Of a stretch of DNA of 47,964 nt, positions 11,588 to 46,016 are shown one piece after another (position 1 is the first letter of the stretch; each line of letters begins with the position of its first letter). The notes under the pieces are model-generated. The model made no database searches. It saw nothing but the letters and a program-made list of their open reading frames with translations, and was not told the origin of the DNA. This DNA comes from Gemmatimonadaceae bacterium (GTDB taxonomy: Bacteria; Gemmatimonadota; Gemmatimonadetes; Gemmatimonadales; Gemmatimonadaceae), in NCBI GenBank assembly GCA_025930755.1, contig JAICOJ010000017.1:1-47964 (forward strand), written 5' to 3'. Both the position numbers and the translations under genes were made by a program.

Positions 11588-11760
11588 GCTGCGACCTGCG
11601 AACTGCGACCTAAAACCCTCGGGATGCTACTGTTGGCGGTAGTAGCTTCCCCGAGGTTCTAGGTCGCCGTTCGCAGCTCGCAGCTCGCAGTTCGCAGTCC
11701 GCAGTTCGCAGTCCGCAGCTCGCAGTCCGCAGTCCGCAGTTCGCAGTTCGCAGTCCGCAG
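11588..11760. repeat. Array B: heptamer array directly after a stop codon
   Basis: Thirteen consecutive 7-bp units (TTCGCAG, TCCGCAG or CTCGCAG on the plus strand) fill 11670-11760 with no gap. The last unit ends at the base next to the TGA of the metallo-hydrolase gene (stop 11761-11763). A short opposing arm (about three units, 11588-11611) and an inner hairpin (GCTACT...AGTAGC around 11625-11646) lie further downstream. The infC promoter starts 28 bp beyond. Confidence 0.88.
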
Positions 11761-12639
11761 TCACTCTCCCTCGAGCCTGTAGGACTTCCCATCGTGCACC
11801 ACCCGTCCCCACGACACGGCGGCATCGTGCTCGAAGACGAGAAGCCACCCCTCGTCCGCGGCGAGCCGGAGGTATTTCCGCTTCGTCTCCAGCGTGACGA
11901 GCGGCTCCACGTCGTAGCCCATGATCCACGGAAGGGGCAAGTGCGCCGCCGTCGGGACGAGGTCGCCAAGGAAGAACGCGATTTCGCCATGTGACTCGAG
12001 CACGATGCTCTGGTGATGCGGGGTGTGCCCCGGCGTGCGGACAACGCGGATCCCGGGAACCAGCTCCCGGTCGCCCTCGACGAGGTCGAGCAGCCCCGCC
12101 GCCTTCACCGGCTCGAAGTTGTTCGGGAAATAGCTCGCCGCGGTGCGCTCGTTCGTGCGCGTCGCCCACTCGTATTCTCCGCGCTGCACGATGTAGCGCG
12201 CGTTGGGAAATGCCGGCAGGATCCGCCCCTCGGCATCGCGATACGTGTTGCCGCCGGCGTGATCGAAATGCAAGTGCGTGTCGATCATGAGCGCCACCTC
12301 CTCCGGCCGGTGCCCCAGCGATCGGAGACCATCCTCGAGCAACGTGCGTCCGTCGGCTCCGGCGTTCTCGATGCCGTAGATGTCGAGGAACTTCGCGCTC
12401 TCCTTGTTGCCCGCGCCGTTGTCGATCAACACGAGCCCAATGTCGTGCTCGACGAGCAGACAGCGCATGCCGAGCGGGATGCGGTTGCGGGCGTCGGCGG
12501 GGATGCGGCGCTCCCAGAGCGGCTTTGGAACGACGCCGAACATCGCGCCCCCGTCGAGCGCCTGCCCCCCCGCTTGAATCGCGTGCACGGTCCACGCGCC
12601 CAGCGTTCGCGTTTCGACCAGCGGTTGTGGGACGGTCAC
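11761..12639 (-). CDS. Metallo-beta-lactamase-fold hydrolase
   Basis: 292 aa from GTG 12639, which overlaps the exonuclease stop (GTGA). Seen: the metal-binding signature THLHFDHAGG near residue 100, a downstream metal His in TPGHTPHH, an Asp in FFLGDLVPTA and a late His in VFEHDAA. This matches the class of soluble MBL hydrolases that includes lactonases and glyoxalase II-like enzymes, with two zinc ions expected. No signal peptide. The substrate cannot be told from sequence; a lactonase role is a guess. Paired with the exonuclease gene upstream. Confidence 0.88.
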   Translation of the reverse strand: MTVPQPLVETRTLGAWTVHAIQAGGQALDGGAMFGVVPKPLWERRIPADARNRIPLGMRCLLVEHDIGLVLIDNGAGNKESAKFLDIYGIENAGADGRTLLEDGLRSLGHRPEEVALMIDTHLHFDHAGGNTYRDAEGRILPAFPNARYIVQRGEYEWATRTNERTAASYFPNNFEPVKAAGLLDLVEGDRELVPGIRVVRTPGHTPHHQSIVLESHGEIAFFLGDLVPTAAHLPLPWIMGYDVEPLVTLETKRKYLRLAADEGWLLVFEHDAAVSWGRVVHDGKSYRLEGE

Positions 12640-16598: not shown

Positions 16599-17033
16599 AT
16601 GCGTCTCCCCTGGCAGCCGAAGGAACCCCCACTCGCGCTCCGGATTGCCCGCACCCTCGAGCGCCGGGGCGTGGGCATCGAAGGACTCGCGGTCGAGACG
16701 CACGGCGGTCGCGCGACGCTCCGCGGTGTGGTGACGAGCGACCTCGCGCACGACCGCGCCATCGAGATCGCGCGAACCGTGGACGGGGTGGAGAGCATCG
16801 ATGATCTGCTCTCGGTCATCGACCCGCAAACGGTGCGTCCGCGCCGCATCATCCGCAACGAGGATTGCACCGCGATCTACATCTCCCGCGCCGGCGACAC
16901 GCTGCCCGTCATCGCGGAACGTGTGCTGGGCGACCGGACTCGATGGCGCGAGATTCGGGACATGAATCGCGGGGTGGTGAGTCGCGGCGTAATGGCTCCG
17001 GGGCTGCGGATCAAGATTCCGAAGAGCGAATGA
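16599..17033 (+). CDS. BON/LysM-domain protein
   Basis: 144 aa from ATG 16599 with GGAG 7 nt upstream. The N-terminal half has a BON-like fold (ALRIARTLERRGV...VETHGGRATLRGVV...ARTVDGVESIDDLLSV, ~15-75). The C-terminal half is a LysM domain (YISRAGDTLPVIAERVLGD...APGLRIKIP, ~95-140). This pairing resembles the YgaU/Kbp family, a cytoplasmic potassium-binding protein, but no signal peptide or lipobox decides its location. It is divergent from rsmA, with a 21-bp gap, and convergent with the PP2C gene. Confidence 0.82.
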   Translation: MRLPWQPKEPPLALRIARTLERRGVGIEGLAVETHGGRATLRGVVTSDLAHDRAIEIARTVDGVESIDDLLSVIDPQTVRPRRIIRNEDCTAIYISRAGDTLPVIAERVLGDRTRWREIRDMNRGVVSRGVMAPGLRIKIPKSE

Positions 17034-17115
17034 GGACAGAGGAACGAGGAAGTGCGGCTAGGGCAAGCGCGCCGGACCATGCGTGCCTCTTCCTCGTTCC
17101 TCGTTCCTCGTTCCA
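17034..17115. repeat. Array G: CTCGTTC heptamer inverted array
   Basis: The 84-bp convergent gap between the BON/LysM gene and the PP2C gene is one imperfect hairpin. The left arm reads GAGGAACGAGGAAGTGC (17046-17055 region) and the right arm is (CTCGTTC)n, about three units at 17090-17114. Convergent placement suggests a bidirectional terminator built from a private 7-mer. Confidence 0.75.
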
Positions 17116-21098: not shown

Positions 21099-21162
21099 GG
21101 TGCGGGAGTTTGGCGGCCTCTGGAGAATGACGCAAGTAATCGCGGGGAAGAACGGCAAAGAA

Positions 21163-21298
21163 GAACGGCAACGATGACGGAATTCAGAATACAGACTTCA
21201 GAATGCAGAAACCACGACGGGGAGCCAGCTTGGGCTCCCCGTTCCGGGTTTTCTGCATTCTGAAGTCTGTATTCTGAATTCCGTCATCGTTGCCGTTC
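21163..21298. repeat. Array M: 49-bp perfect inverted repeat between rsmD and coaD
   Basis: Arms 21163-21211 and 21250-21298 are perfect reverse complements over 49 bp. The 38-nt loop holds a further 9-bp stem (21218-21226 with 21233-21241). Inside the arms the word CAGAATNCAGA recurs. The right arm contains the last 12 bp and stop of rsmD, so the end of that gene has been copied in inverted form downstream. On the RNA the hairpin is followed by a pyrimidine-rich tract (TTGCCGTTCTTCTTTGCC), consistent with a terminator. Confidence 0.95.
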
Positions 21299-21853: not shown

Positions 21854-21980
21854 AACTGCGAACTGCGAACTGCGAACTGCGAACTGCGAGCCACTCCTGG
21901 CTGAGCACAGTGCCGGTTTTCGCATAGTTTTTTTCGCAGTTCGCAGTTCGCAGTTCGCAGTTCGCAGTTCGCAGTTCGCA
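21854..21980. repeat. Array C: GCGAACT inverted array between recJ and rsmD
   Basis: Left arm: five exact AACTGCG units (21854-21888). Right arm: six exact CGCAGTT units plus a partial one (21935-21980). The loop is ~46 nt with a T-run. The right arm starts 5 bp after the recJ stop. These are the cleanest copies of the shared word in the window and would give a near-perfect stem of about 35 bp. Confidence 0.93.
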
Positions 21981-35400: not shown

Positions 35401-35474
35401 GAACTGCGAACTGCGAACTGCGAACTGCGAACCCTAAGGAGTCGAGCTCGGGTCGCAGCTCGCAGTTCGCAGTT
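35401..35474. repeat. Array D: GCGAACT inverted array between hrcA and dnaJ
   Basis: Left arm: four GAACTGC units (35401-35428). Right arm: about three reverse-complement units (35453-35474). Loop of ~24 nt. It starts 12 bp after the hrcA stop and ends 28 bp before the dnaJ ATG. Same word as arrays A, B, C and E. Confidence 0.9.
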
Positions 35475-43078: not shown

Positions 43079-43087
43079 GTGCAGTTC

Positions 43088-43168
43088 AGCGCCTCCAGCG
43101 CCTCCAGCGCCTTCAGCGCCTTCAGCGCCTCCAGCGCCTTCAGCGCCTTCAGCGCCTTCAGCGCCTTC
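43088..43168. repeat. Array J: nine nonamers (AGCGCCTYC) directly after the mlaD stop
   Basis: Nine tandem 9-bp units, AGCGCCTCC or AGCGCCTTC, without gaps. The last unit shares its final C with the mlaD stop codon (43168-43170). There is no inverted arm. It fills the whole gap to the EamA gene, so it is transcribed as a purine-rich GAAGGCGCT repeat. Confidence 0.92.
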
Positions 43169-45936: not shown

Positions 45937-46016
45937 CTGCGAACTGCGAACTGCGAACTGCGAACTGCGAACGGCGAACGGCGAACTGCGAACGGCGAGC
46001 TGCGAATGGCCGAGCT
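45937..46016. repeat. Array E: one-way heptamer array in the mlaE-hldA divergent gap
   Basis: About eleven 7-bp units (GAACTGC, GAACGGC, GAGCTGC, GAATGGC) in one orientation only, without an inverted partner. It lies between two divergent genes rather than 3' of one, and stops 4 bp before the hldA -35 box. Same core word as arrays A-D. Confidence 0.9.

Follow-up and report, generated by a model that had tools for sequence, protein, structure and literature searches.

Sequence analysis of the inverted repeat at the end of rsmD shows that this hairpin is one copy of a dispersed stem-loop repeat, named here family D, that lies closely behind many genes, probably acts as an RNA 3'-end hairpin and would be homogenised by exchange between its copies. 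Comparison with a sister species shows what appears to be a concerted turnover of this site-conserved family: the sites at gene ends are kept, while the sequence is replaced across the copies of each genome. The analysed stretch of DNA (the window, 47,964 nt) belongs to a 275-contig draft genome of a Gemmatimonadaceae bacterium (G000), a placement to which the named relatives of its RsmD also point. It has been compared with 40 relatives, among them the sister species G001, the sole genome of the same genus in the set searched.

Structure of the rsmD inverted repeat

The left arm (21163..21211) and the right arm (21250..21298), both unstranded, pair over 49 bp with zero mismatches, exactly as the first-pass annotation had placed them, and they lengthen to 21163..21216 and 21245..21298 (54 bp at 96%). 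The additional GC stem reported in the loop (GGGGAGCC/GGCTCCCC) also exists, with 10 pairs instead of the 9 described (minus strand, 21242 to 21217). This core stem-loop, ACGGGGAGCC-CAAGCT-GGCTCCCCGT at 21217..21242 on the minus strand, is present in about half of the family-D copies and is terminator-like, with a weak U-tract. The RNA of the rsmD-sense strand folds with −120.6 kcal/mol, compared to −50.3 ± 4.5 for shuffled sequences (z = −15.8), and when the window was shuffled twice with an order-1 Markov model, neither version contained an inverted repeat of score ≥16. The structure at rsmD is real and far beyond chance. Its arm is the longest perfect one in the 1.10 Mb of G000 examined, where the perfect-arm lengths form a continuous series (49, 43, 43, 41, 41, 40, 39) with the rsmD site on top.

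The rsmD gene (PF03602; 21284..21817, minus strand) is followed by coaD (PF01467; 20613..21098, minus strand), the start of which lies about 65 nt past the hairpin. As noted at first pass, the stop and last codons of rsmD lie inside the right arm, where they make up the outer 15 nt. The left arm opens with the tail GAACGGCAACGATGACGG, followed by TTCAGAA-type heptads. A partial additional tail (GAAGAACGGCAAAGAA; family consensus AACGGCAAAGATGAC; 21147..21162, unstranded) abuts the left arm on its outer side and shares a 13-bp direct repeat with the arm start; it may be what is left of an older copy that a newer one has replaced or inserted into. A second heptad hairpin (21854..21976, unstranded), built of GAACTGC units of family A, occupies the recJ–rsmD gap and is missing from that gap in G001.

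A misassembly of the contig might be suspected in a 275-contig draft. It is extremely improbable, as the rsmD–coaD gap of the independent G001 assembly also contains a hairpin, family-D tail copies are found on many G000 contigs, and the hairpin class also occurs in the 4-contig assembly G017. The loss of SbcCD has been rejected as the cause of the palindrome's survival; an SbcD-like match was found in 41/41 genomes, mostly below the curated cut-off.

Family D and the origin of the rsmD C-terminus

The hairpin and the end of rsmD have the sequence AACGGCAACGATGAC in common, which forms the outer tail of the lineage-specific, multi-copy family D. Whole-genome searches with the tail AACGGCAANGATGACNGAATTC (≤2 mismatches) gave 57 matches in G000, one each in G001 and G014 and none in the 38 other relatives; reversed controls gave 0. 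Altogether 24 paired copies have been recovered, with the layout tail – heptads – (core) – heptads – tail. A copy comprises the outer 15-nt tail, a short array of 7-nt units and often the GGGGAGCC-loop-GGCTCCCC core, then the reverse complement. At rsmD, the copy follows immediately on the stop codon. Family D has the characteristic features of stem-loop sequence repeats: many copies, a common sequence and fold, and an intergenic location. No Rfam covariance model matched at the gathering score in five loci including the rsmD site (L031), and a literature search with the repeat sequences themselves returned nothing relevant.

The first-pass annotation had taken the left arm to be necessarily copied from coding sequence. 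This does not hold, as the tail that arm and gene have in common is a repeat dispersed over the genome. The rsmD of most relatives stops near residue 171 (e.g. ..GITFYRV*), ahead of the tail and usually about five residues earlier than in G000, where the protein ends in ..ITFYHALRERQR* and reads into the repeat. Since the tail is dispersed and the rsmD of relatives stops before it, the coding end of rsmD was recruited from the repeat and not the reverse. Copying of this coding end into the gap by a recent template switch would fit the perfect arms with their coding bases. It is very improbable and has been ruled out by the dispersed tail, the shorter rsmD of relatives and the hairpin in the same gap of G001. 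For gene callers, rsmD is a warning that the called end of a gene may lie within a repeat of this kind.

The arms of most family-D copies in G000 have diverged; identity is 83.5% between the arms of one copy and 80.1% between copies. Such divergence fits decay as well as function. Mirrored arm changes within G000 numbered 23, versus 8.0 expected with permuted arms (maximum 18 in 2000 permutations), next to 126 changes in one arm only. Because mirrored changes are in excess and yet one-arm changes are many, the pairing of the arms seems to be renewed rather than constantly enforced. These mirrored changes, together with the two-sided columns at rsmD described below, lend some support to the earlier suggestion of an ongoing correction between arms.

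Hairpins with 7-nt units in the genome

The window contains eight inverted repeats of this kind, mostly with arms of 7-nt units (GAACTGC, GAGGAAC, TTCAGAA), and more such arrays. In 1.10 Mb of G000, 167 hairpins have been found, or about 15 per 100 kb, a density that could be biased, as the stretches were picked partly for containing repeat matches; G001 stretches picked irrespective of hairpins gave 15.9 per 100 kb. The strongest arm period among the 167 G000 hairpins was 7 in 95 cases, 9 in 22 and 14 in 4. The left arm (5' side) is purine-rich in 162/167 hairpins of G000 and 49/50 of G001.

Several further elements have been observed. Other hairpins with 7-nt-unit arms of the GAACTGC and GAGGAAC families lie in the window at 589–788, 11588–11684, 17028–17113 and 35409–35474. 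Long tandem arrays are located at 11664–11761 (14 × TCGCAGT), 45937–46006 (10 × CTGCGAA) and 43085–43168 (nine copies of the 9-mer TTCAGCGCC). Hairpins of a TCAGGAG family (L061, 14172–14333; L065, 12345–12489; L075, 17699–17853) share a conserved core, formed by two hairpins around the palindrome CTCATCAGATGAG; the cores of these three loci had no Rfam match, and they are possibly a structured RNA element of their own. The GAACTGC triple repeat has 145 matches in G000 and 80 in G003, a member of another genus, and is almost missing from the 393 remaining genomes searched in the phylum, indicating a patchy spread.

Position relative to genes and proposed role

The context numbers below are approximate, as genes were called with a simple home-made caller. 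Family-D copies mostly lie 0–16 nt past a stop codon, and on both sides where genes converge. For all families in co-directional gaps, the upstream stop is a median of 7 nt and the following start a median of 36 nt away, with the hairpin nearer the stop in 51/73 gaps. Among gaps of at least 60 nt, the share with a hairpin is 38% where genes converge, 29% where they are co-directional and 15% where they diverge (Fisher p = 3.6e-4). This is the placement of terminators: behind stops, enriched in convergent gaps and depleted in divergent ones. The neighbouring genes of family-D copies are unrelated housekeeping genes, and no obvious regulon has been recognised.

The most likely role, judged from sequence, is that of an RNA 3'-end hairpin, either a terminator or an mRNA stabiliser. 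The copies stand behind stops, are few in divergent gaps, have a terminator-like core and keep their site, features that fit a hairpin at transcript 3' ends serving as terminator, attenuator or stabiliser. The hairpin would act in RNA at the 3' end of the upstream mRNA, and bidirectionally between converging genes; there it would end or blunt transcription and/or shield the transcript from 3' exonucleases.

The first-pass proposal of a very strong terminator fares well on position and less well on strength. The core stem has only a weak U-tract on the rsmD strand (CGTGGTTTCT), one such terminator having been found against a shuffle mean of 1.0, and elsewhere the distances to downstream starts are short. 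Several co-directional family-D copies have the next start merely 15–33 nt off, as in prs-[D]-rplY (L161). Complete termination is unlikely in such tight gaps, because 15–33 nt leaves little room for a new promoter. Both species have a family-D hairpin in the prs–rplY operon gap (L161, 1410–1522, in G000; L286, 1499–1616, in G001); in G000 it lies 29 nt ahead of rplY. No sigma-70 promoter was recognisable in the 65 nt between the rsmD hairpin and coaD, although the promoters of this phylum may differ. A wobble test on the transcribed strand of co-directional hairpins counted 60 G-U against 42 A-C pairs, a weak trend.

By analogy with NEMIS elements (reviewed in PMC2229807), the duplex could instead be an intercistronic processing hairpin, cut by RNase III so that rsmD and coaD are parted within one transcript. 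The very long, near-perfect duplex and the many copies in operon-like gaps, 15–33 nt from the next start, would suit such processing; nevertheless it is unlikely, as many hairpins lie between convergent genes, where a cut separating cistrons has no meaning.

Site conservation and sequence turnover in the sister species

On the syntenic contig of G000 and G001, most neighbouring proteins are 76–99% identical. The rsmD–coaD gap of G001 contains a hairpin with different, TCAG-type heptads, and that of G021, from another genus, one with CTAGGGG heptads. A single recent origin at this site, as considered at first pass, is at odds with these long hairpins; since the gap of G001 also has a hairpin, the site is old. 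The G001 heptads belong to a family D' with 146 matches in G001 and 25 in G000, mostly from a shared subfamily.

Sites have been compared from about 1.1 Mb of G000 and 0.31 Mb of G001. Where a G000 family-D site had its orthologous gap in unselected G001 DNA, a hairpin was present in 7/7 cases and was D-type in 5/7. In the reverse direction, 7/9 D' sites of G001 face a family-D copy in G000, in DNA that was enriched for D sites; the other 2/9 had no syntenic pair there. The non-D families are less site-conserved, with any hairpin in 7/13 orthologous gaps, and a pairing test over all hairpin families in orthologous gaps was not significant (p = 0.40). The site-conservation signal is specific to family D.

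These data also bear on a neutral or selfish element of the MITE or REP kind, which would spread and convert without a role, its post-stop place reflecting selection against insertion into genes and promoters. Orthologous gaps often lack the lineage-specific families A and C, most D copies have decayed arms, and hairpins sit in co-directional gaps that are tight in relatives, all of which agree with such an element. Set against this are the family-D sites kept in the sister species and the flanks of the 24 family-D copies, in which no target-site duplication is evident by eye. A RAYT-driven REP element has been rejected, as Y1_Tnp genes do not track the hairpins (one in G000, none in the hairpin-bearing G001, G017 and G021). 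The selfish reading is possible but rather doubtful.

For family D, the arm sequences tell of replacement. Arm identity between the species is 0.589 at orthologous and 0.588 at non-orthologous sites, while among copies within a species it reaches 0.726 in G000 and 0.922 in G001, the latter inflated by a pattern search that took the best matches first; the genome-wide tail and D' match counts give the same species split without this bias. One site of the shared subfamily (s7) has an identity of 0.931 between species. At the rsmD site, 10/29 arm columns differ in both arms between the two species, with pairing kept. The concerted turnover is read from these values because orthologous arms are no more alike than non-orthologous ones and copies within a species are 73–92% alike.

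Homogenisation needs exchange between copies. The dispersed copies would be kept alike by conversion or re-copying, which would also renew the perfection of the arms. With somewhat less than even confidence, we propose that fixed gene-end hairpins are replaced genome-wide, species by species, with position and pairing kept, through conversion or re-copying by some machinery that makes purine-first 7- and 9-nt units; this would be a bacterial counterpart of concerted evolution, in a dispersed regulatory repeat. A gene search identified no enzyme for the homogenisation.

Comparison with known repeat systems

The usual explanation of dispersed stem-loop repeats is insertion followed by decay. Here, the same gene ends hold a hairpin across species while its sequence changes in step genome-wide, with pairing intact. 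If confirmed, this would offer a natural system for studying the homogenisation of dispersed non-coding repeats in a bacterium, and would allow one to ask what fixes the 7-nt unit and the purine-to-pyrimidine order. Neither several unit families in a single genome, nor long perfect arms bearing cores and tails, nor sequence replacement at kept sites is reported in the literature searched.

The REP/BIME/REPIN elements with their RAYT transposases are likewise many-copy extragenic palindromes behind genes; in contrast, the hairpins described here have no RAYT link, and their arms are longer and built of heptads. The heptamer STRR repeats of cyanobacteria are dispersed, lineage-specific 7-nt arrays, but direct repeats, unlike these hairpins. 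The TAACTGA repeats of Beggiatoaceae, arrays located upstream of starts, are also dispersed and lineage-specific 7-nt arrays, and differ in being direct repeats that are not paired as hairpins behind stops (PMC4679880).

The wider class is that of stem-loop sequence families and MITE-like repeats (NEMIS/Correia, RUP, RU-3 and others), short dispersed intergenic palindromes which, like the present hairpins, are RNA-foldable and in places fused to gene ends (PMC2267715, PMC2229807). Unlike MITE-like repeats, the hairpins are not A+T-rich, show no evident target duplication, have arms of 7-nt units and lack the 5'-TA-3' terminal dinucleotide of the MITE definition (PMC2229807), family D ending in AACGGC...GCCGTT.

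The nearest precedent is provided by the paired GGGAATC heptameric repeats of Xanthomonas, with 70–75 pairs per genome, convergent (i.e. inverted) and intergenic (PMC4692102). These arrays lie 28 nt from the 5' gene versus 160 nt from the downstream one and are rare between divergent genes (PMC4692102); the tandem 7-nt units, the inverted pairing, the position nearer the 5' gene and the rarity in divergent gaps are thus common to both systems. However, the Xanthomonas arrays represent one heptad family, studied as a G-quadruplex (PMC4692102), whereas about ten unit families with periods of 7 and 9 occur here, with long perfect arms, cores, tails and a species-wide replacement of sequence at kept sites.
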